A DNA stretch of 64,000 nt, from NCBI GenBank assembly GCA_949751835.1, contig CATKHK010000007.1, positions 248,001-312,000 on the forward strand, in the 5' to 3' direction. Under the pieces are notes generated by a model. The model was given only the letters and a program-made list of their open reading frames with translations. It was not told the origin of the DNA and made no database searches. This document shows positions 32,588 to 55,885 of this stretch, one piece after another. The first letter of the stretch is position 1. Every line of letters starts with the position of its first letter. The position numbers were made by a program, and so were the translations under genes. Source of the stretch: Blepharisma japonicum. Its lineage: Eukaryota; Ciliophora; Heterotrichea; Heterotrichida; Blepharismidae.

Positions 32588-35500
32588 TTGACTATAATGT
32601 TTATTTATCAGACAATTTTGATTTTATTATTTTCATTGGGTGATGGCTTGACTTCCTATAAAATTCCAAAAACTGGAACTCCTCCTGATGCAAGAAAGCA
32701 TTCTGCAGCAGCTTATGACTCAACCCAAGATAGAATGATAGTATTTTCAGGATCTTCATCTGAGCGAGAATATTATAATGATATATGATGTTTCGATTTT
32801 GGCAGCTATCAATGATCACAGCTGATACCCTCAACATCTTCAGTTCCTGACCCTCGGGTGAGTCCAGCAATATTTTATGACAAAAATCTCAACCGACTTC
32901 TGATCTTTGGAGGAAAAACGTATGTTGGCATTGCTTCTGATATTTGAAGTTTTGACTTAGAATTTCTTATTGTAAGTGATATTTAGTGAGAAAAAATAGA
33001 TTTTTCTAGCTGCCGATTTCACCCAACATCAGCAATGGCATCAGTATCATTTATATGAAATAAAAAAACTTACTACTCAATTTATGGTGGTAAATCTCCT
33101 GATTTAATGCAAACAAGGCTTTATATATTTGACTTTGAGAATGAAAATTGTACAATTATGCCAAACCAAGGGGATTTGCCAGTGCCTGGAGGTGAATCCC
33201 GAATGGTTTTTTATAAAGATTCACTTTTTGTATGAGGAGGACTAACCTATAATTTTTACTACAACCAAGAACTATATATTTATAACCTGACAACTCAATT
33301 ATGATCAAAACCAACTATACTTGGCGACTTACCTACTGGAAGAATGATGTTTGACATTGCAGAGTATTCAGGTTACCTCTATGTCTTTCCTGGATACAAT
33401 AGCAATTTCAATTCAGGCATTAATGATATTTGGAGAATAAAACTGTCTGATCTAACATCTTGAGAGAAGGTCACATTTACAAAAGACTCAATAACAGCTG
33501 TGAGAAGCGAAGCTGTCAGCATTTTTGTAAATTCGACCCTGTACCAATTTAGCGGTGCCCTCAATACCAATGATTTGATTTCTATTGATTTGTCGCAGAC
33601 CACTCCAAAATATGAAACAGTCACAGAAAATTGAATTTCTCCTCCTGCAAGAATGAGTTTTTCAATGGCAAGAGTTGAAAAATATTTGATTGTGTTTGGA
33701 GGGATTGGGAATAATGAAGAATTGTAAGAAATATGCAGGTTTAATGATGTCTGGACTTTTGATATGGAAGAGGAAGTATGAAAATCACTCGATCCTGCTT
33801 CTAATCTTTCTCCAAGATCTGGCCAGGCCACCAGTGAGACTGGATTTGGAATGGTAGTTTTTGGAGGAGAAGACAGTTCAGGCTTGCTTAATGATTTTTA
33901 TGTATTTTCTCTAGCATCTCAGTCTTGGCATGAAATTACTAATACTGGAACAGCTCCTAGTCCCAGAAAAGGAGCATGCATACAGACATTTGAGCCTTTT
34001 ATTTTTTTATTTGGAGGATTAACAAAGACAGGATTTTCCAATGACATTTGGATATATAAACTATGGGAAATGTCTTGGGAAAATATAACTCCGGCTGGAA
34101 ATTCTGTCCCACCTATGGCATGGCATGAATGTTACATGAACTGAGACAACGATTGACATTTTTATGCTCTATTTGGGAAACTTAGTGGCGATCTTCCTAA
34201 TAAAAACATTTACAAATATAGTTATGCGACAAAATCTTGGGAGATCACTCATACATTCCAATATAATGACATAAGAACAAGCTTTAGCGAGTTATCAACG
34301 GAGGTTTTTGATACTTTTTTTATTGCAATTGGAGGAGAATTCGATGACTATTATTCATGCAATTACATTACGCTAATAAATCGCACTAATTTTGAAACTG
34401 CGACTACAGAATATATGGAAGAGTCTTTATTTTCTCATGAGTCATCTTATTTCATAGACAAGCTCTATGTGTTTGGAGGCAGCTTATCAATAAACACAAT
34501 TATGCCTGGAAGGCTTGTTTCAAGTACATTGTATAAGATAGCTTTTAATGATTCACAAATAAGATACCCCTGCAGCTTCGGATCATATAAAGTAGGACCT
34601 GAATGCAAAATTTGCCCTGTTGGGACTTATTCAGAATCATATGATGCTTCTGAGTGCAAAAAATGCCCTGCGGGGACTTATCTTAATATACCTGGAGCTG
34701 CAAGTTCTAATTTGTGCATTCCTTGCAAATATGGAAGCTACACAAATGCTACTGGGACTGGATTATGCCAGCAATGTCCTGCAGGAATGGAATGTGAGAT
34801 TGGAAGCACTTCTCCAAGTATTAAATTGCATACCTATAATCAGACCAACCATCAGCCTGAGTACTATGAAGGAGGAGCAAAGACTGTCAACAAGTGAGTA
34901 TACTTTATGGAAATCCTGTTTTCTATATTAAGTGTAATTCTTATTTTAATTGCAGTCCCCAATAAAAAGTTATCAAGCTGAGTGTCAAAAGCAGATATTT
35001 ACGATGATAAGCATAATGAAGACAATCAGCCCATGTATAAGAGGAAAACTTATATTGGAGGTCTGTTTTCCTTATTGACTACTCTATGAGCTTGCTTTAT
35101 TGTGATCATGTATATTTTGCAGCAAGCCTATGACAATGTGACTGAAACAAAATCTTTAATTCCTCTTCTTCACCTTTATCAGCAAGCAGGGAAGTTTTCT
35201 GGTGATATTTCTGTATCTCTCAGTCTATACAATTATGGAGGTACTTGTGTGAAAAACGGAAAGTGTGCTGCAGGAATTTCTTTGACTTGGATGAACACAT
35301 ATAGCGATGAAACAACAATAAAGTGCAAATTTGTTGATAAAAATTGTGTAATTTTCACAACTTGTAAAAACTGTGAGATATTAACAGATGCAAATTTAGT
35401 TTTTAATTTCACAGAAAGTAGCAGTTATGGGAGCTATTTTTTAGTTGAAGTGACCTCAGATTCAGCAATTCCTAATGAACCGAGCTCTTATTCAGTGTAT

Positions 35501-36028
35501 GTTTATCCTCCAAAAGATCAGGTGCTGATAGGACAGAATCCTAATTATGTTAATTTTATTATGACACCAAGCGTAAGATTTATATAGCTTTTTCTTTCAG
35601 ATGTAAACACTTGGAAAAACAATCAGACTGGGTATCTAATTTCTCTGGAAAATACCAAGCTTGGATCGAGTTGGACTGTGGACGAGATGGCATATTATAA
35701 ATATGTAAATATAATCCTTAATTTTCAAACTGATACGACAGGGCTTCTAACTGCAAGAACAATCAATATGGATTTTATTTTATTTGTAAGTACTTTATTT
35801 GGGTCTTTAAGTGGAATAGTAGATTTAGGCGGTTTTCTGATGGAGTTTGTGGAACAAAAGTTGAATGAGATCAAAGAGAAAAGATCATCAAAAATAGAAT
35901 TAAGCCATTTAGCACATAATGTGAAGAAATTCTTAGGAAATTTTTCTCAACAACAAAATTTTAATAAATTATTTAGCAAGAGCTGCACAGTTGAATTTGA
36001 TAGTTTTATGGTCTCTAATAAATTTTAA
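32588..36028 (+). CDS. Kelch-repeat, cysteine-rich membrane protein, tandem copy A
   Basis: The gene encodes 1131 residues in four exons. The 15-nt introns are 32972-32986 (GTAAGTGATATTTAG), 33724-33738 (GTAAGAAATATGCAG) and 35573-35587 (GTAAGATTTATATAG). It has a signal peptide (MTIMFIYQTILILLFSLGDG); about ten kelch-type units with FGG/FSG turns and paired W/Y, ending near residue 640; a GCC2/GCC3-type cysteine repeat (CKICPVGTYS..., CKKCPAGTY..., CQQCPAGMEC); then TM1 (FMEILFSILSVILILIAV), TM2 after KRKTYIGGLFSLL, and a second, smaller ectodomain with NDET-type Cys pairs before a charged cytoplasmic tail. Many TGA-Trp codons sit exactly at kelch Trp positions. It is probably a surface or adhesion protein; ciliates carry large families of this design. 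Confidence 0.85.
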
Positions 36029-36673: not shown

Positions 36674-39600
36674 ATGCTTATTTATCTCTGCTTATTATTT
36701 TACTCAGCCAGCAGTTTACAGTCTGTTAAAATTCCCAAAACAGGACAACCTCCAAAAGCAAGAAAATATTCATCTGCGACTTATGATACCAATGGAAATC
36801 GAATGATAATATTTGCTGGCTCATCAGATCAAAGAGAATATTATAATGATATTTGAAGCTTCAAATTCGATACTCTGGAATGGTCAGAACTAAACCCATC
36901 AACTCCTACATCTCCATCACCTCGCGTGAGCCCTGCTATTTTTTATGACGAAAATGAAAATAGAATTATTCTTCTTGGAGGAAAAACCTATTTAGGAATT
37001 GCTTCAGAAATTTGGAGTTTCAATTTAGACTTTTTTATCGTAAATTTAATTTAGTGAGAGCAATTAGATTTTACTGGCTCAAGATTTTACCCAACGACAT
37101 TTGCTGCTTCCTGCTCATTTGTTTGGAATAATAAAAATTATTATTCGATATTTGGAGGAGAGACGACAGATTCTGTTTATAATCGACTATATCTGTAAAT
37201 AACATTTAGGCTTGATCTTAAAAATGAAACCATTTCATTGCTGCCAAATAATGGAAATTCTCCAAATCTAATGCAATGCGAGATGGCATGCAATAATGAT
37301 ACTATTTATGTGTGGGGTGGAACAAATACAAATTTTGTTTATGACACAAACTTATACATTTATAATTTAACGTCGCAATGATGAATCAAGGTTGATGTCA
37401 GCGGAAATAAACCTCTTGGACGAATATTTCACACCGTACAAATTTACTCTGGATTTTTTTATGTTTTTCCTGGATTTAATTATAATACTGAAGGAGATCT
37501 CATGGATATTTGGAAAATAAACTTAACAAGCCTAAATAGTTGAGAATCTATGAGTTTCACGAATTCTTCAACATCTGCAAGAAGCATGGCAGCAAGCATT
37601 TTAGTTAATTCAAGTTTATATCAATTCAGCGGATCAACAGTTACGAATGATTTAATCTCAATTGATCTATCATTGCCAATTCCATGTTTTGAAACTATTT
37701 CTAGCCAATGAATATCTCCGCCACCAAGAATGAGGTTCTCAATGACTTCGATTGAAAGCTATTTAATTGTTTTTGGAGGGTTGGGTAGAAATGATGTGTT
37801 GTAATTTTCAATTAGATATAACGATTTATGAATATTCGATATTGAAAAAGAACTCTGAAGTTCTCTTGAAACTTCTGTTGTGCCTTCTGCTCGATCAGGA
37901 CATGCCTCAGCTCAAAGTAGTTTTGGAATGGCTATCTTTGGAGGAGAAGATAGCACTGGTTTGCTTAATGACTTATATATTTTTTCATTTAAAGCACAAA
38001 GATGAAGCCTTATCCCCAATTCTGATAATAATGTCCCTACTCCCAGAAAAGGTGCATGCATGTACTTCATCGATCATTATGCAATTTTGTTTGGGGGGAT
38101 TTCCAAGACAGGCTATGTAAATGATATATGACGCTTTGATATATATGATTTATCTTGAACTAACCTATCTCCTTATGATAGTTCGGTCCCTGCTCTGGCA
38201 TGACATCAGTGCCTTTTAAAATATAATGGCGATACATTGAGTTATTATGCTTTCTTTGGACAAATTGTGGGCGCATTCCCAAATAAATCAATTTACGGCT
38301 TCAATTTAGACACTAATTCTTGGTCACTTTTTAAAAGCTTCAACGGAAATGAGTTTGGGTTGGCTCCGAGCGAGTCCACAGTGGTTGTGTTTCCTGATTA
38401 TATGGTGATAATTGGTGGTGAATTTGGTGATTTTTATGTATCTTCAACAATTTCTACAATGAGTGTAGAAAATTTTACAATTTTATCAGTAGAGTATATG
38501 GATATCCCCTTATTTTCTCACCAATCTGCTTATTTTGCAGATAAATTATACATTTTTGGAGGAAGTCTTTCCATTAACACCCTTCTTGCAGGAAAACTGA
38601 CATCAGGAACACTATTTAAAATATCATTTGAAAACTCTAAAGTTCGCTATCCATGCAGCAAGGGTGCTTATCTTAATAATTCTCAATGCTTAATTTGCCA
38701 ACCTGGAAGCTACTCAGCAGAGTTTGATTCTACTGAGTGCACAAAATGTCCAAAGGGAACGTTTTTAGAGGATTCTGGAGCCCAAGTTGGTTCGCTTTGT
38801 GTCCCTTGCAAAGATGGAAGCTATTCAGACGAACTTGGTGCTGACTTGTGTAAAAACTGTCCTGCTGGGATGCAATGCGATATAGGGAGTACAGATCCAA
38901 CAGAACAAGTGTACTTGCCTTTAAAATTCTCTAATCAGCCAAAACAATATGAAGGAGATGTGAAGGTTGTAAATCACTGAACTTTTATATTTGAGATCGT
39001 CATATCTGTATGGATTTTTTTAATAGTTTTTCTGGCCTTCTTTAGCAATAAATTTTGGGACTGAGTTGCTAGGGTTGATATATTCGACACTCAGCATAAT
39101 AAAGACAACGAGCCAATGGTAAAGAGAAAAACGTCAGTTGGAGGGTTATTTTCATTAATGGCTTTGCTATGAGCTGGATTTTTGGTCGTTTTGACAACTT
39201 TGCAAATATTTTATGATAACGTCACCGAAACAAAAGCCCTTATTCCTTATTTATTTTTAGCGCAAGAAGCTGGAAAAGTTTCTGCAGACATAAAAGTTGT
39301 GGTGAGCTTATACAATTACGGTGGGAATTGTGTCGTCAATGATAGCTGTGCAAATGGAATTAGTTTATCTTGAACTGGTACAGTTCATGATGGTGCTACT
39401 TTGGATTGCTATTTTATCGATAAAGTTTGTTATGTGTTTTCTGAATGCAAATCCTGCGTTTTGTCATCGACTTCAAGCTTAACTCTCAGTTTATATGAAA
39501 CGAGTAGCTATGCAAGCTATTTTTCAGTGAATGTTACATCAGATTCATCAATTCCTGGCGAATCTAGCTCCTATGCAACTTATATATATCCTCCTACAGG

Positions 39601-40108
39601 CAGTCTTTTTATTGGACCTCAGGCTACATCTGTGGATTTTATAATGACTCCTTGTGTAATTTTTATATAGTTATTTCTTTCTGATTCTTCAGAATGAAAA
39701 AATAATCAGACAGGTAATTTGGTGTCTTTTGATAAATATACGCTTGGGTCAACTGGAACAGTGGAGACGATGACATATAATAGATATTTTGAAATTCTCA
39801 TCAATTTCAATGTAGATATTACTGGATTGCTAATAGTTAGAACACTCAACATGGATTTTCTTTTATTTTGAAGCAGTGTGTTTGGGTCAGTCGGAGGAAT
39901 GATTGAAATTGCAGGACAAATTATGGAGAGCTTTGAAGAGAAATATAATGATAGAAAAGAAAAAAAGCAGCTAAAGGAGGAGAGGAAAAAGAGGATCTAT
40001 GAGGTCGAAAAATTTAAATCAATTTTTCATAGTTTTGCAGAACTCAAAGGGCAGTCAAAACAGTCAACATTTGATCTTGAAAATGGGTCAGAAGAAGACC
40101 CTTTTTAA
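36674..40108 (+). CDS. Kelch-repeat, cysteine-rich membrane protein, tandem copy B
   Basis: The gene encodes 1124 residues in five exons, colinear with copy A: signal peptide (MLIYLCLLFYSASS), kelch units, GCC2/GCC3-type cysteine repeat (CLICQPGSYS..., CTKCPKGTF..., CKNCPAGMQC), two TM segments around KRKTSVGGLFSLMALLW, a Cys-containing ectodomain and a Lys/Glu-rich cytoplasmic tail. The 15-nt introns are 37040-37054, 37195-37209, 37801-37815 and 39656-39670. Three match copy A in position; the one at 37195 is absent from A. The pair arose by tandem duplication and has diverged considerably. Probable surface or adhesion role; ligand unknown. Confidence 0.85.
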
Positions 40109-40385: not shown

Positions 40386-41933
40386 ATGCCTACAAGTATC
40401 TTAAAAAAATTTGATAATAGTTATGAGCTAAGCCTTGGACCTGGCTCATATAGATCAGCCACACCTACTCCAGGCCCTGCATATCAATTTGATACATCAC
40501 CGAGATTAGCAAGTCCAATAGAGCACCAACTTAATTCTGTCTTGATCAGGTATAGTGGAAATAAGAAAAAGTTTGTTAATAGAGATATTTCAGCACGTGA
40601 TATATCTTTGCATACTCGTAAGAAAAAGAATGATTTGCTCAAAGAAAAATCTCAACAAAGATTAATTGATGCAACTCTAACAAAAAAAACAAAAGAGTTT
40701 ATTGAGATCACGAAGCATGAAAATCTTGTAAAAAGTCTTGAAGAAAAATATGCTAAATATGAATTCAGAAGAAATAGAAAAGAAATCTTACAGATCAAAC
40801 AAAACTGAGGAATTTTGTTTATAATCATAGCATTTTCATGATCATGAAGGGAGCAATTTAATAAGCTCAAAAGATTCAAAGTGAAAGTCAACTTTTTAGG
40901 AAAATGATTTACAATAATGTGCTTGCTAATTGGAAAGATTAGAATTCGATGCAAAATGATTAAAAATAGAAAAGCTTGGAACGCTCTAAGAGACAAAATG
41001 CCTCGATATGTAAGAAGGTGAAAGTTAAATCGAAAAAATAAGCATACACAGATTATGGTAAATTTTCTTGATTGATTCCTGAGCCATGCACAAGCATATC
41101 AGATGATAAAACGATGAAAGAAAAAAATAATTTTAATTCAAAAAAGTTTTAAATCGATGAAGCTAATATATAAAGCAAGGCTAGATACTTTGCTGCTACT
41201 ATGATCGAAAACAGAGCCTCAAGCAGAGATAGACCCTAAGAAAAAGCAAAATATTGACAATCAGTTTATTCCTGAAAAAATAAAGCTTCACTATTTGAAA
41301 CCTTATCTATTAAAAAAATTAAAAGAATTTTCAAAAGAAATAAGCCAACATTTCAGAATGATAAAATCAAGAGAAATTGAATTGTCCATGCAAAAACATA
41401 TGTATCAAATTGAAAGAGCTGTAACTGGCAAGAGATTTAGCATAAGAAATCTCCTTCCCAAAAGGCCAAGGTTTTTTTTATTCATTTGCAAAAGCGAATT
41501 AAAAGATGTGATCAAAAATTCATTGAAAGATAAAGACAATTGAAGTACCATTTTGGGTACGAAAGTTAATGGCACTCAAAATTTATTGAGTAAACAGTTA
41601 TCAATTATATCAGCAGGGCCTTCTAAAGTGAGAAAAAGGAGCAGAAAGAAGAAAAAGATTGTTTTTGAAGATATCGAGATAACAACGAGAAGTCGAAGCC
41701 GGACTATTAGAAATAATAGGGCTAACCAGATTTTGCTAGCACCAACTAAAGCTGTATTTGCAAGATATGAAGTAAACAATGCTATTATCGAAGAATTTGA
41801 CTCTAACTTCAAAAATTTGAGAGGGCAACCAACAGAAGCAAGTTTTAAAGGGAGTAAAATGGAAATTGAAGAAGTTGATGATTTTGATTTTGATACTGTC
41901 AGAGTCAGACAGAGATCAAGAACTAGAAGATAA
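40386..41933 (+). CDS. Basic PGP/IQ-motif coiled-coil protein, tandem copy 1
   Basis: The gene encodes 515 residues in one frame with about nine TGA-Trp codons. The N-terminus has GPGSYRSATPTPGPAYQF, like the PGP-x-x-Y motifs of SHIPPO/ODF3-type microtubule proteins. Then follow long basic helices with Trp-containing units and an IQ-like segment (LIQKSFKSMKLIYKARL), which may bind calmodulin or centrin. Near the C-terminus is a KKKKIVFEDIEITTRSRSRT box, then an acidic stretch and a final RQRSRTRR. A cytoskeletal or cortical role fits but is inference. The start is the first ATG; the 11 bases GCATTGGAGTG just upstream are shared with copy 2. Confidence 0.7.
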
Positions 41934-42877: not shown

Positions 42878-44695
42878 ATGTCGCCTAGAGGCTTCTCAAA
42901 AAGATTTGATAGCAATTGTAATCCAGGTCTTGGACCTGGCTCATATAGATCAGCTACGCCTACCCCAGGCCCTGCCTACGAGTTTGAAACTTCTCCAAGA
43001 TTTGCAGCCCCACTAGAGCACAAGTTTAACTCTGTTTTAATGAAATTTATTAGGTACAGCAGTAATAAGCAAAAACTTGTTAATAGAGATATTTCAGCAC
43101 GTGATGTTTCTTTGCATACCCACAAGAAAAATAATGAAGTGTTAAAAGAAAAATTTCAAATAAAATTAATTGAAGCAGCCTTGACCAAAAAGACGAAAGA
43201 AAATATAGAAAATGCCAAACATGAAAAAGTTGTAAAAAGCCTTGAAGAAAAATATACTAAGCAAGAATTTAGAAGGCATAGGAAAGAAATTTTGCAGATA
43301 AAAAAAAATTGAGGAACCCTATTTATAATTGTAGCATTTTCAAGATCGTTAAAACAGAAATTTAATATGCAAAAAAGATTTAAAGAGAAAGTCAATTTCT
43401 TAGGTAAGCTATTTATGATAATATGCTCGTTCATTGGAAAGATGAGAAACCGATGCAAAACGATTAGAAGTAAGAAAGCTTGGAAAATCCTTAGAAGCAA
43501 AATGGCTCGATATATAAGAAATTGGAAGATAAATCGAAAAAATAAGCATAAAAAAATTTTGGAGAACTTTCTTGATTTGTTTCTAAGCCATGCACAATTG
43601 CTCGAGATAATGAAACAATGGAAGAAAAAAGTAGTTTTAATTCAAAAAAGCCTTAAATCGATGAGGTTAATTTATAAAGCAAGGCTATACGCCTTGCTGT
43701 TACTGTGATCTAAAATAGAATCACAGATTGAGGAAAGTCCTAAAAAGCAGCAAAACATAAGCAATCAGGCTATTCCTGAAAAGATAAAGATATACTACTT
43801 GAAGCCATATCTATTAAAAAAATTAAAAGATTTTTCATTTCAAATAAGCTATTATTTCAAAATGATAAAATCAAAAGAAATTGAATTTTCCATCCAAAAG
43901 CATATGTGCGAAATCGAAAGAGCTATGACTGGCAAAAGGTTTAGCATAAAAGCTATATTTCATGCACAGGAATTGATTTCATTGGTATTTTTTCATTTTA
44001 ATATCTCTCATTAGGCCAAACTCGATATTCATAAAATTATAATATTTATCTTTTAACATTTATATTCAAACTGATTAAACTTTATTTGCCGTTAATTTTT
44101 AGTAATTTTAACTTATTGCTGGGCCATATACTAAAATAAAAATTCAAGTCTAAACAATTTGTTTTGGAGTAATTCTTTATTTTACCAGCACGAAACCAAT
44201 GGCAACAAATATGAGCTCATGAGCTATATTCTGCCCAAAAGACCGAATTTTATTATATATAACTGCAAAAACGAATTAAAAGAGGTCATTAAAAACGCGC
44301 TGAAAGATAAGGATAATTGAAGCAGTATCTTGGGGATTAAAATAACCGGAACAAATAAACAGTTCTCAATTAAATCAAGATTCCATAAACAGAGAAAAAG
44401 GACCCAAAAAAAGAAAAAAATCATTTTCGAAGATATCGAGATTACAACAAGAAGCCGAAGCCAGACAATTCGAAATAGTCAGGTAAATCAAATTCTGCTT
44501 ACTCCATTAAAAGCAGTTTTTCCGAAATACGAGTTAAATAATGCTGCCATCGAAAAATTTGATCCGAGCTTTCCAAGGATAAGAAGGCATCCTATGGAGT
44601 CAAACAATAAAGGAGTTAAAAAGGTCATAGATTTAGCTGAAGATACTGATTTTGATAATATCAGATTTAGGCAAAGATCAATGACTAGAAGATAA
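42878..44695 (+). CDS. Basic PGP/IQ-motif coiled-coil protein, tandem copy 2, interrupted
   Basis: This gene is colinear with 40386-41933 over its whole length: GPGSYRSATPTPGPAYEF near the N-terminus, the same basic helices and IQ-like segment, TGKRFSI, PKRPNF, KKKKIIFEDIEITTRSRSQT and a final RQRSMTRR. After TGKRFSIKAI the frame enters an insert with TAG/TAA stops and resumes at ILPKRPN near 44228. Removing 273 bp between two TA dinucleotides (43954-44226) gives an uninterrupted 514-residue protein, one residue shorter than copy 1. As the DNA stands, translation would stop at 44014, losing the C-terminal third. It is either a gene with a retained eliminable element or a recently broken paralog. 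Confidence 0.65.
43954..44226. mobile_element. TA-bounded 273-bp insert, candidate retained internal eliminated sequence
   Basis: The insert interrupts copy 2 of the tandem pair and has no counterpart in copy 1. It is bounded by TA (43954-43955 and 44227-44228). Excision leaving one TA removes 273 bp, a multiple of three, and restores SIKAILPKRP against SIRNLLPKRP in copy 1. The ends form an imperfect inverted repeat: TATATTTCATG on the left, TATAGCTCATG read from the right end on the other strand (9 of 11 match). TA-bounded excision is the known rule for ciliate internal eliminated sequences. No ORF is seen inside. The simplest reading is an unexcised or alternatively retained element. Confidence 0.55.
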
Positions 44696-46202: not shown

Positions 46203-47246
46203 ATGCAGCTTAAAACTCACAGTCCACTTAAATTTCTTAACTCTCAACTAAGCTCAGGACTAGAAGAGGGTGGTAGTAAAAGCATTCAATATCATTTTAA
46301 TCAAAATCTTGATAATCGATTATTAGATCCTCAAGACTTAAAAACAAAAACATCTGTAATTTTAAACAATGTCAATAATCCTGAAATAGAGTGAGATTAT
46401 AGAAGAACTTGCTCACTATATGAAAAACAAAGTTCTATTTCGATTCCGAAGCTTCAAGACACTTTTCAAGAATTTGTCAATGCTTACCACAAAATCACAT
46501 CTCTATATCTTATTAGAGAAGTAAACAAGAGAACTAATTTATTTATTTATGACACTGAAAGTCAAAGAGAGCTAAGAAAACCTTTGAAAACTCCTAAACT
46601 AGTCGACAAAACCACATGCATAGCCCCACTTCCAAATGGCAAGCTATTCTGTTTTGGTAAGGGAAAGCCTTCTGGGTTTGCTTTTATAATTTCTGAAGAT
46701 TTCAGTGTTCGAGAGTTGCCATCTGGAACACCATGCTGCTTATCATCAGCTATTTATTTCAAAAAGTCTATTTATTGCTTTGGAGGATCAGCTAATGGAC
46801 TTCTAACTTCAGCTTTGTCAGAAAGGTTTGATATGGATAAAAATCGATGATTTAAATTAACCCCTATGCTTCAAGGCGATTACTGCTGCCATTGTATAGT
46901 ATTTAAAAGGAATATTTTGATTGCTGGAATGCAAAATAACCTTATGCTATATTCAGTTGATCTCAACTCTTTCTCTATAATTCCATACGAATTTAAATTA
47001 GTTAGAAAGATTATTATAAAGGTAGGAAGATTGTATATAATTGAATGTGGCATGGGATTTATCTATGAAAGTGAGGCTGAAGATGAGTATACTTGGAAAC
47101 AAATAGCAAAATCCGGAATTCGCCATTATCCTTACCAAGTTTCATGCTCATATAATAAAGGAGGAGTTTATATAGGGTATATTCAAAATCCTAAATGCAA
47201 TTACTGAAAGTTTAGATTGGATATAAAAAAAGTTTATGAGCTATAA
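46203..47246 (+). CDS. Soluble kelch-like beta-propeller protein, copy 1
   Basis: The gene encodes 347 residues with TGA-Trp codons (EIEWDYRR, KNRWFKL, CNYWKF) and no introns. There is no signal peptide. The N-terminal ~110 residues are helical; the rest has kelch-like blades with IAPLPNGKLFCFGKG, SAIYFKKSIYCFGGS and NILIAG turns. Its paralog is 49547-50611 in the same orientation. Likely a cytoplasmic propeller for protein binding; partner unknown. Confidence 0.8.
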
Positions 47247-49546: not shown

Positions 49547-50611
49547 ATGGAACTCACAACTCAAAAAGAACAACTTAAATTACTTAATTCTCAACTTGAT
49601 AGTTCAGCAGTAGAAGATTTGATATGTGACACAAGCCAACCTCTGGCAAAATCTCAAGTTTTCAGTTCACAATTATTGTCCTATCAATACCTCAAGACTA
49701 AAACTTCTGAGATTTGAAAAAAGGCGAATAACCCAGAACTAGAGCTGGATTTTGCAAGAGCATGCTCGCTATATGCAAGCCAGAGCTGTGCTATAGATCC
49801 ATTTCTAACTCAAGCATATAAAGAATATATTGAGGCTTATTATCAGGCCACATCTCTTTATCTTTTTAATCACGAGATATGAGATTTAAAAACCAATGCG
49901 TTTATTTATGACACTGAAAATGAAAGAAAAGTTGTGAAAGAATTGAAAAAACAAATACCAATAAACTGAGGAACGAGCACTGCTTGGCTTCCAAATGGTA
50001 AAATATTTTGCTTCGGCAGATATGAGCCAACTAGAGGAATCGCTATAATAATTGATAAAGATTTGAATGTTCAAGTATTGCCATCTGGAAAGCCTTGCTG
50101 CTTATCATCCGCTGTCTATTTTAACAGGTCTGTCTACTGCTTTGGAGGAGTATATTACAAGGAAGTTTTGACTTTATCTTGCAGATTTGACTTGGATAAG
50201 AATCGATGAATTAAATTAAATCCAATGCCAAAAGCTGATTGGCTTACACACAGTTTGGTATTTAAAGGGAATATTTTGATTTCTGGAAAAGAAAATAAAA
50301 ATCTTTTGCTATATTCGACCAATCTTGGCTCTTTCTCTACAATCCCTTATGACTTTCCTGTAGATAAAAGAAAGATATTAGTAAACACAGACAGGTTGTA
50401 TTTGATTGAATTTTTTAAGGGGTTGATATTTGAAAGTGAAATTGAAGATGAGTATACATGAAAACAAATAGCAACTTCAATAATCAGCCAATATTCTAAT
50501 CAGTTTTATTTTTCGTATAACAAAGGAGCAATATATATTGGGATTTTAGAAGATCATGACGCTAATTATTACAAGTTTAGCTTAAGTGAGAAAGTGATGA
50601 TTAAACTGTAA
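49547..50611 (+). CDS. Soluble kelch-like beta-propeller protein, copy 2
   Basis: The gene encodes 354 residues; TGA-Trp codons are frequent (for example in SEIWKKAN, HEIWDLK, INWGTS, KNRWIKL, EYTWKQ). It is colinear with 46203-47246: shared FIYDTE, LPNGK.FCFG, LPSG.PCCLSSA.YF..S.YCFGG, F..DKNRW.KL.PM, VFK.NILI.G and ESE.EDEYTWKQIA. No signal peptide. The duplicate has drifted in its N-terminal ~60 residues. Probable cytoplasmic binding protein. Confidence 0.8.
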
Positions 50612-53413: not shown

Positions 53414-55885
53414 ATGAATACTAGCTCTTTTCAATCTGCTAATCCCTACAGCAAAATGCCGAATCCTTTTCAATCAAATACAGCATCTAATTATCAAAAC
53501 CCTTCGCAATTCCAAGCCATACCAAATCCATTTCAAACCTCAATGCCATCTACTTTCAATACCTTCCAAGCTCAACCTCCTATAATAAGTTCTTCTCAAA
53601 ACAGGAGTTTTTCTTCATTCCAGCCAGCCTCTACACTCCAAAACAATCCAATGACAACACAATCTTCAATTTATGGGCAAACTTCTACCCCTATGGGCTA
53701 TTCCCAGCCTTTCCAAACGCAAGGCAGTTCCAATACAATGGGCCAAAATAGAGTTGGATTTAACTTGCCAACTTCTAATACCCCTCAAAACGTTTATGGG
53801 ACAACAAATAATTCTATAAGTTTTGGTAATAGTAATCAATTTGGAAATTACCAGAAATATAAGGTTACACAGATAAAGGAAGATCTAGTTGCAATTAACA
53901 TCACTAATATAATTGGAATGCAAGAATATGGCCATAAGTCAATTGAAGAACTTAGATTTGAAGAGAAGAAAAAGTATCCGAATGGTGCACCTATGGGAGG
54001 GAATAGTCAAATGCAAGCATCAGCTCTTAGAACTAGCAATCCTTTTGGTATCAATTCAACTCAGATATCAAATCCTATACCAACTTATAATAAACCATTT
54101 AGCAGCTCAACATGGCCCCCTCAAGGCTCATCATTTGTTCCAGCTCAAATAGGAGCAACAAATTCATCACAACCTTTTCAAGTCTCAAATGGGCCTTTTT
54201 CGACTGGCTATGCTTCATTGCAGAGTACACAACCCTTTGCTCAAGGAATGCCATCTCCTTTTCAAACATCACAGCAGCCAAATTCTCTGAGTTCAATACC
54301 TTTTCAAATGTCTCAGACTCCTTTTCAATCATCTCAGCCCTTTCAGGTAAAGCCAACATTTCCACTAGCTTCGACAACACCAACCCAGCCTTTTTCATCA
54401 AATATTCAGCCATTTCAAACTTCTCCATTTTTTCAATCTCAGCCTACACAAAATAATTCTTTAAATCAGCGATGGCCAGCAACTGGATCTCAGCCATTTC
54501 AGCCCAATCTTACATTTTCAGCTCCTCAAACTACAACTCAGAATCAATTTACTGCATTAGCTCAGCCTTTTCAAAATTTCCAGCCTGCTCTCCAGGCTTT
54601 TCAAAATACTTTTCAGCCAAAGCCTTTAATTGCTCCTAATAGCCAAGGTCTTCTTTCTGCTAATTCAAGCTCAATGCCTATGAGCTCAGCTTTTCAATTA
54701 GGTGCAAATACCTCCCTAATATCTCCGCCATTACTACCTTCATCAAACTTTGTATTACCAAGCCAAAATTTAAGCCCCACATCTTTTAACCCAATCAATC
54801 CTTTATTACAAAGCTCTACCCAACCTGGCTCTTTTTTCCAAACTTCAAATCAGCCTACCTTTACACCTGCTCAAGTTACTACACAATCACTATTTGGAGG
54901 ATATTCTCCAAGCAGTACCAATTCAACAAGCTTTAAACCATTTTCTCCGACAAATAGACAAACTGAGACTATTTCCTCACAGATCGAGCGCATAACATCT
55001 CCAAAATTTGAAAATAAATCAATAAGAAGATTTGAGAGGAAGATTGGGAACTCATGGGATGACTGAAGAATGAACCAAACCCCAAAATCTCCTGATATTT
55101 CCTGCTTGATCAAAAGACCTAGTTTTGCAAACTTAAAGTTAGAGCCATATAAAGAAGAAGATTTTTCAAAACTAGACCCGGCACCTTCTCCAGTAAACAG
55201 AGGCCGATCTTTTGAAATAGAAGCAGTCTTGCATAATCCTAATCCAACTCACATTAAAATTCCGACACATAAGAATATGCTGATTAATGATATCAAGACG
55301 TATATTTTGAGACAAATTACAATTCCAGAAAACTCAACAGTACAACTTGTCTTTAAGTCGACCGTTGCACAAGAAAATGACACTATAGGATCTTTAGGTG
55401 TTTCTCATGGTGATACTATAAATATTGTTATAGCCGAGGAAGGGCCAAGCAAATCTGAAATGGTTGTAAAAGAGATGCTACCGAAGCTAACTAATGAAGA
55501 ATACACTATTTCTCCATCCATGATAGAATTAGCAAGAATGACAAAAGATGAAATCACCAGGGTGAAAGATTTTACAATAGAAAATTCCTATGGAAAAATT
55601 ATTTTTGAGGGTGAAACCAATTTGATAGGAATCGATCTAGACGAAATTATCAAAATTGGATATCACGAAGCAATAATTTATCCTGATGAATCTGAAATTC
55701 AAAAGCCTAAAGTAGGAGAAGGACTTAATAAATCTGCAACAGTCATGCTTTACAAATGTGCTCCAGACCGTGAGTCTGAAGAGAAATTTGAAGAGAGACT
55801 AAAGAAAGCCTGCTTAAAAGACCGAACTCAATTTATTGGTTGGGATAAAGAGACTCAAATATACACATTCAAAATTAATGGTTAA
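53414..55885 (+). CDS. Nup98-type nucleoporin with FQ/PFQ repeats and a ubiquitin-like domain
   Basis: The gene encodes 823 residues in one frame; TGA at 55064-55066 is Trp (SWDDWRMNQ) and links what would otherwise look like two genes. Residues 1-545 are low-complexity Q/S/P/T with FQ motifs (21 by my count, 11 of them PFQ) and only four FG and no GLFG. A GLEBS-like Gle2/Rae1-binding motif sits at ~165-190 (NIIGMQEYGHKSIEELRFEE). Residues ~600-680 resemble a ubiquitin-like fold (IKIPTHKNMLINDIKTYIL...DTIGSLGVSHGDTINIVI). Residues ~690-823 are the Nup98 autoproteolytic domain (SPSMIELARMTKDE, VKDFTIENSYGKIIFEGETN, GIDLDEIIKIGYHEAIIYPDE, VGEGLNKSA, TQFIGWDKET). It ends at FKING with no HFS cleavage site and no Nup96 part. 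It would act in the nuclear pore. Confidence 0.88.

Follow-up and report, generated by a model that had tools for sequence, protein, structure and literature searches.

Contrasting LF and PF repeat classes among the Nup98 and Nup62 proteins of Blepharisma japonicum

One cytoplasm serving two nuclei differently is best known from Tetrahymena where, according to the available part of PMC5450191, the Nup98s with GLFG repeats (MacNup98A/B) are macronuclear and those with NIFN repeats (MicNup98A/B) are micronuclear. The DNA analysed here, a stretch of 64,000 nucleotides from Blepharisma japonicum (contig C7, positions 248001-312000; hereafter the window), carries a Nup98 gene with a repeat domain rich in FQ and PFQ and almost free of FG. 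Could PFQ repeats be a third solution to the same two-nucleus problem, as a sequence-only reading of the window had proposed? We searched the 45.2-Mb assembly (224 contigs) for related genes and compared their repeats. The window gene is labelled P0001, and the other repeat-bearing Nup98s of the same genome P0002 to P0005.

A Nup98 gene with PFQ repeats

The features of P0001 are collected in Table 1. Its frame contains a single in-frame TGA, at residue 551. Genetic code tables 11, 6 and 4 were tried; tables 11 and 6 were rejected because TGA is a stop in both and the frame is broken there, and TGA was therefore read as Trp, the only code tried that keeps the frame whole. In the paralog alignment this column reads DDWR in P0001, DNWR in P0002 and DKWR in P0003, with Ser in P0004 and Cys in P0005; P0002 and P0003, both with Trp at this position, contain no TGA codon at all. 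Both the TGA=Trp reading and the presence of a 15-base GT..AG intron in a related gene (see below) fit the features given for Blepharisma in the available part of PMC9942806, namely UGA as Trp, introns mostly of 15-16 bp and 66% AT. Inspection by eye of the initial 300 bases of contigs C7, C81 and C97 revealed no run of the Blepharisma telomere unit.

Table 1. Features of the window gene P0001 (positions in the window)
Feature	Position	Strand	Evidence
Nup98-PFQ gene, 823 aa with TGA as Trp; ATG at 53414, stop TAA at 55883-55885	53414..55885	+	Translation; Pfam Nucleoporin2 2.6e-27
Disordered F-repeat domain, first part, residues 1-145	53414..53848	+	Motif counts; GLEBS bounds set by eye
GLEBS-like segment, residues 146-191, contains GMQEYGHKSIEELRFEE	53849..53986	+	Pfam GLEBS 20.2 bits at residues 166-183, cut-off 27; paralog alignment
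Disordered F-repeat domain, second part, residues 192-513	53987..54952	+	Motif counts; end set by eye
In-frame TGA read as Trp551	55064..55066	+	Trp in this column in 2 of 4 paralogs
Ubiquitin/SUMO-like domain, residues 605-673	55226..55432	+	Pfam Rad60-SLD 1.8e-6; paralog profile vs RAD23 9.9e-8; Foldseek SUMO1 1.4e-5
Nup98 C-terminal APD fold, residues 695-821	55496..55876	+	Pfam, Foldseek and profile matches
C-terminus ING-stop, just before the expected HF of the autocleavage site	55874..55885	+	Alignment with paralogs ending HF, NF, NF

Residues 1-513 of P0001 contain 44 F, 21 FQ, 11 PFQ, 18 PF, 4 FG, 1 LF, 1 SLFG and no GLFG, and the counts previously made on the letters alone (21 FQ, 11 PFQ, 4 FG, no GLFG) were reproduced exactly. 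When the same residues were subjected to 20,000 composition-preserving shuffles, the mean number of motifs was 5.7 for FQ, 5.4 for PF and 0.7 for PFQ, and in no shuffle was the observed value reached for any of the three. FG was not enriched in these residues (4 observed, shuffle mean 2.1, p 0.16). Tandem Repeats Finder detected no tandem array within the gene, and the 11 PFQ are encoded by five different nine-base strings; the PFQ repeats are therefore not a recently amplified DNA repeat. An assembly error or a pseudogene was considered unlikely, given the intact frame, the well-scoring folded domains and the confident structural model.

Without the GLEBS-like segment, the repeat domain of P0001 is 467 aa long, with an F density of 9.2 per 100 aa, a charged fraction of 1.9% and a hydrophobicity of 0.423, values close to those of P0002 (8.7 F per 100 aa, 1.6% and 0.415) and to the hydrophobicity of 0.412 that we computed for the engineered GLFG 12-mer described in the accessible part of PMC8245513. 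A median length of 549 +/- 87 and a charge of 2.5% are given for Nup98 FG domains in the available part of PMC4283134. P0001 has the long, Phe-dense and charge-depleted N-terminal domain of Nup98s, its disorder being judged from composition, and from its likeness to P0002 and the GLFG 12-mer in F density, charge and hydrophobicity this domain would be expected to form a cohesive phase. Since these properties are kept with almost no FG, the PFQ domain provides a natural test of the need for the glycine of FG.

Folded domains, paralogs and the Nup96 locus

The C-terminal domain of P0001 scored 96.2 bits with the Pfam Nucleoporin2 model (cut-off 28.4). The claim of the sequence-only reading that this is an autoproteolytic-type domain therefore holds for the APD fold, but not for the cleavage site, as the protein ends with FKING and lacks the HF. 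The GLEBS match of P0001 (E 6e-4) falls below the Pfam cut-off; its SIEELRFEE is aligned with the GLEBS of P0002, which passes it at 28.5 bits, and the segment also aligns with that of P0003, which scored 22.8 bits, again below. A GLEBS-like segment was seen in four of the five repeat-bearing Nup98s (in P0004 without a Pfam match) and is missing from P0005; a GLEBS-like stretch also aligns in the Dictyostelium Nup98-Nup96.

The ubiquitin/SUMO-like domain of P0001 reached 28.1 bits with the Pfam Rad60-SLD model (cut-off 23.8), and a ubiquitin-type domain (UBL) above the Pfam cut-off precedes the APD in all five repeat-bearing Nup98s (the window gene and loci L002, L003, L004 and L005). The AlphaFold model of the last 229 residues of P0001, built from a five-sequence input, had a mean pLDDT of 86, with a pTM of only 0.63; with Foldseek, parts of it were matched to Nup98 APD structures (2.6e-11) and SUMO1. 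A UBL+APD profile of the five paralogs matched a Nup98-Nup96 chain (2.5e-30) and RAD23, and in each of the 55 sequences that it matched, the UBL or the APD gave the best stretch. The APD fold is shared with the human/mouse and Dictyostelium Nup98-Nup96 (PDB 1ko6, 3tkn, 7r5j, 9hcj) and, from the structures matched, with Nup100, Nup116 and Nup145N of yeast, which also has several Nup98 paralogs. The yeast structures are short APD constructs, uninformative on the ubiquitin-like domain; in 7r5j and 9hcj, which are long chains of 880 and 1164 aa, the profile reported a single stretch, the APD. No report of a UBL in Nup98 was found in the available parts of the open-access literature. The internal UBL is a possible docking site for enzymes of the SUMO or ubiquitin pathway.

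The Nup98-Nup96 precursor combines an FG domain with Nup96 and is cut at HF/S. P0001 has no HF/S, and the only Nup96 match of the genome is at another locus. The chains end with HF-stop in P0002, NF-stop in P0003 and P0004, FKING-stop in P0001 and KHILNYLIW-stop in P0005; four of the five repeat-bearing Nup98s thus stop at, or just short of, the scissile bond.

A protein search of the genome returned seven places, corresponding to the window gene, five clear relatives and one non-relative (E 1.57). The Pfam APD model detected at least eight loci, two of them far below the cut-off; the six above it are the five repeat-bearing Nup98s and one repeat-less APD-Nup96. The possibility, raised earlier, that P0001 might be the only Nup98 of the genome is thus contradicted by four more repeat-bearing Nup98s with other repeat types. 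At the Nup96 locus (L006/L008, contig C99) an ATG located after the preceding gene opens an APD without repeats, followed by PHF/TRYGF, which resembles a cleavage site, and then by Nup96, whereas in Tetrahymena Nup96 forms one transcription unit with MicNup98B (available part of PMC5450191). The APD-Nup96 gene carries the 15-base GT..AG intron GTAAGGAATATTTAG, and the gene directly before it is VTA1-like, as named from reading its sequence. A genome search with the repeat region of P0001 returned only P0001 itself; as it missed the known P0004 and the PF-type Nup62 described below, it is uninformative on further PF-type FG-Nups. No relatives were confirmed in viral and prokaryotic contig collections, where absence is uninformative.

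LF and PF repeat classes in Nup98 and Nup62

The glycine after F is rare well beyond P0001. FG density per 100 aa was 0.86 in P0001, 3.9 in P0002, 1.67 in P0003, 0.59 in P0004, 1.85 in P0005, and 0.21 and 0.78 in the two long Nup62s, compared with 6.3-10.3 for ten Nup98 FG domains listed in the available part of PMC4283134, where domains end at the last FG while ours were cut by eye. The Nup62 L020 has 1 FG for 41 F, and P0003 7 FG for 37 F. Such a wide loss of glycine makes FQ alone a weak signal, in part a lineage-wide habit, and the classes are set apart by the residue before F and not by FQ. P0001 does not resemble the canonical FG/GLFG type, which has about 6-10 FG per 100 aa with GLFG/SLFG; with so few FG, no GLFG and a single SLFG, it was not filed as an FG-type Nup98.

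By the residue before F, the five Nup98s fall into an LF class (SLFG/SLF; P0002, P0003 and P0005) and a PF class (P0001 with PFQ and P0004 with NPF). P0002 (C97) is of the SLFG type, with 17 FG and 15 LF; P0003 (C81) has 11 LF, 10 FS and 7 FG; P0005, shortened and adjoining P0003 on C81, has 9 LF; and P0004 (C87) has 10 PF and 7 NPF with no LF. The same distinction separates the two long Nup62s, L020 being LF and L022 PF. The ratio of [LIM]F to PF was 39:8 in P0002, P0003 and P0005 together versus 1:28 in P0001 and P0004 (Fisher p 1.5e-12), and 20:1 in L020 versus 0:13 in L022 (Fisher p 1.5e-8); these p-values overstate the certainty, as the class rule was drawn after the sequences had been read, the domains were delimited by eye and the Fisher tests treat as independent motifs that are not. 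In each of the five Nup98s and in both long Nup62s the class motif (PF or LF) was strongly enriched relative to shuffled sequences. P0001 and P0002 have nearly equal contents of L (4.7% and 4.3%) and P (12.3% and 12.8%), so that the difference between them is one of placement and not of composition. As to physical character, two domains stood out: P0004 has fewer F (5.9 per 100) and P0005 more charge (8.5%).

Among the 12 genome matches to the Pfam Nsp1_C model of Nup62, three were above the cut-off (L020, L021 and L022), and all three passed again as whole proteins. L021 is a short Nup62 of 267 aa on C87, with 7 F, 2 PF, 1 FG and no LF, and fits neither class clearly; some 70 kb separate it from P0004, the NPF-type Nup98 of the same contig. 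Two of nine Nup54 matches were above the cut-off, their printed frames having no FG repeats. Nup96, Nup93 and Nup107 each gave one genome match. The Nup155/133-type N-domain gave one match of 115 bits, one of 24.6 bits that passed only with its neighbours and two below the cut-off, and is thus not a clean single copy. Expansion is therefore more marked in the barrier and channel proteins than in the scaffold. The Nup214 propeller model gave 12 weak and scattered genome matches, the best at 30 bits (cut-off 29.6), a pattern to be expected from WD40 proteins, and in the six loci fetched, with about 1.5 kb on each side, no F-rich frame passed the script threshold, so that no FG-bearing Nup214 was seen. 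The Nup58 and Nup88 models had one and three genome matches, respectively, none above the cut-off.

In unrooted UBL+APD trees of the five Nup98s the LF members were split from the PF members with supports of 96/96 and 98.7/99. When mouse, Dictyostelium and APD-Nup96 sequences were included as outgroups, the LF members still grouped together (81/86, UFBoot/SH-aLRT, and 85/80, SH-aLRT/UFBoot). P0001 and P0004 were no longer recovered as a clade: in the best rooted APD tree P0001 joined the LF clade (SH-aLRT/UFBoot 83/69), and constraining the two PF Nup98s to be sisters lowered the log-likelihood by 2.2 units. We therefore make no claim of a single origin for the PF class.

Two kinds of pore and other explanations

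The organization of this Nup98 set recalls that of Tetrahymena as described in the available part of PMC5450191: there are several Nup98 paralogs of two contrasting repeat classes in one genome, one with L-F-(G) and the other departing from FG. The second class differs, being PF (PFQ, NPF) here, with no NIFN and no NIF in any of the five Nup98s. FQ itself has counterparts there: according to the same partial source, the Tetrahymena Nups contain FN, FQ, FA and FS variants, Nup62 has FX repeats with X being N, Q, A or T, and Nup214 is split as Nup98 is, the NIFN repeats of the micronuclear MicNup214 mostly having Q as their last N. The proposal of PFQ repeats as a third solution gains some support from the contrasting classes, but PFQ is not a lone kind, since the PF class is shared with P0004 and with a PF-type Nup62.

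Outside ciliates, a likeness is seen in Arabidopsis Nup98B, in which Pro before Phe is also a main motif (1.6 PFG per 100 aa, Table 2 of PMC4283134, available in part); unlike P0001, with its 4 FG versus 21 FQ, the plant protein keeps Gly after Phe, at 7.8 FG per 100 aa. Yeast Nup100 and Nup116 also differ from P0001, being rich in SLFG/GLFG according to the same source. No report of PFQ or NPF Nup98s was found in the available parts of the open-access literature, nor any open-access paper on Blepharisma nucleoporins or on FQ repeats alongside FG repeats in nucleoporins; the available parts of PMC8421043, PMC9579204 and PMC9958989 contained nothing contrary on PFQ/NPF repeats or the UBL.

We propose, with a probability of roughly 0.55 and partly by analogy with Tetrahymena, that the cell may have two kinds of pore, with LF and PF barrier and channel proteins on a shared scaffold, assigned to the macro- and the micronucleus. 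The five repeat-bearing Nup98s, the LF/PF split in both Nup98 and Nup62, and the two Nup54 matches against single Nup96, Nup93 and Nup107 argue for this proposal, as does the Tetrahymena precedent of nucleus-specific Nup98s. According to the proposed mechanism, the cell would build LF-type and PF-type pores, each with its barrier and central channel, on the common scaffold, where P0001 would be anchored by its APD, and each pore type would be assigned to one of the two nuclei. The Phe side chains, with canonical-like density, hydrophobicity and low charge, would still form a cohesive phase, while Pro before and Gln after Phe would alter the affinity for particular importins, so that one pore type would let certain carriers through more readily than the other. 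Like its counterparts in other Nup98s, the GLEBS-like segment would serve to recruit Rae1/Gle2. By likeness to the GLFG-bearing macronuclear pores of Tetrahymena, we infer that LF would be macronuclear and PF, including P0001, micronuclear. The fuller version, according to which Nup98 and Nup62 supply two complete barrier chemistries on one scaffold, one for each kind of nucleus, separate from GLFG/NIFN, extending further than that pair by reaching the central channel, and with an almost FG-free selective phase, we hold tentatively, at a little under even odds.

Several observations stand against this assignment. The split was seen in only two gene families, the PF Nup98s do not form a clade in the rooted tree, and L021 fits neither class clearly. 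In addition, both nuclei of Tetrahymena have Nup62, Nup58 and Nup54 (available part of PMC5450191), so that a split of Nup62 and Nup54 here would depart from the precedent. Moreover, five Nup98s exceed the need of two nuclei. This excess, like the presence of Tetrahymena Nup62 on both nuclei, would agree with LF and PF Nup98s occupying different places of the same pores (cytoplasmic or nuclear side, or inner ring), the classes marking position and not nucleus. The distribution of GLEBS, present in four of the five Nup98s and absent from P0005, also recalls yeast, in which Nup100, Nup116 and Nup145N divide labour and GLEBS is divided among the paralogs. However, duplicated Nup62 and Nup54 would not follow from a division of the Nup98s by position, and we consider this explanation unlikely.

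Alternatively, constraint may have been relaxed: if Gly after F became unneeded in this lineage, the neighbours of F could have drifted in each duplicate with no functional split. The low FG density (0.2-1.9 per 100 aa in all of the seven domains except P0002, against the tabulated range of the partly available PMC4283134) and the failure of the rooted tree to unite the PF pair fit such drift. Yet the class motifs are enriched over shuffles in the five Nup98s and two long Nup62s, as is PFQ in P0001, and this enrichment, despite varied PFQ coding and with no tandem array, suggests that the motif has been selected. Most of the domains (P0004 and P0005 excepted) have retained F density, low charge and hydrophobicity, and the same two F contexts recur in the unrelated Nup62. 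Drift is still less probable in our view. It is also conceivable, though we find it quite improbable, that the PF-class Nups serve at a single stage, for instance in meiosis or in the new macronucleus as it develops, instead of being constitutive in one nucleus; Tetrahymena exchanges its nucleus-specific Nups while the macronucleus develops and induces them in conjugation (available parts of PMC4432229 and PMC5450191). If an assignment of LF and PF pores to the two nuclei is correct, a second lineage using another repeat pair, Nup62 included, would suggest that the setting of nuclear identity by residues adjacent to Phe is general and repeatedly evolved.

Inspection by eye of the regions around these genes revealed signs of duplication. 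At both LF-class Nup98 loci L002 and L005 the next gene, on the same strand, is 2-Cys peroxiredoxin-like, which suggests segmental duplication, and the starts of contigs C81 and C97 (L010, L011) are very similar. Within the window, 32597-36028 and 36674-40108 are tandem paralogs that encode kelch-like repeats, a Cys-rich segment and what look like membrane helices. Further paralogous pairs are found at 40386-41933 with 42878-44695 and at 46203-47246 with 49547-50611, which suggests that small duplications are frequent in this genome.
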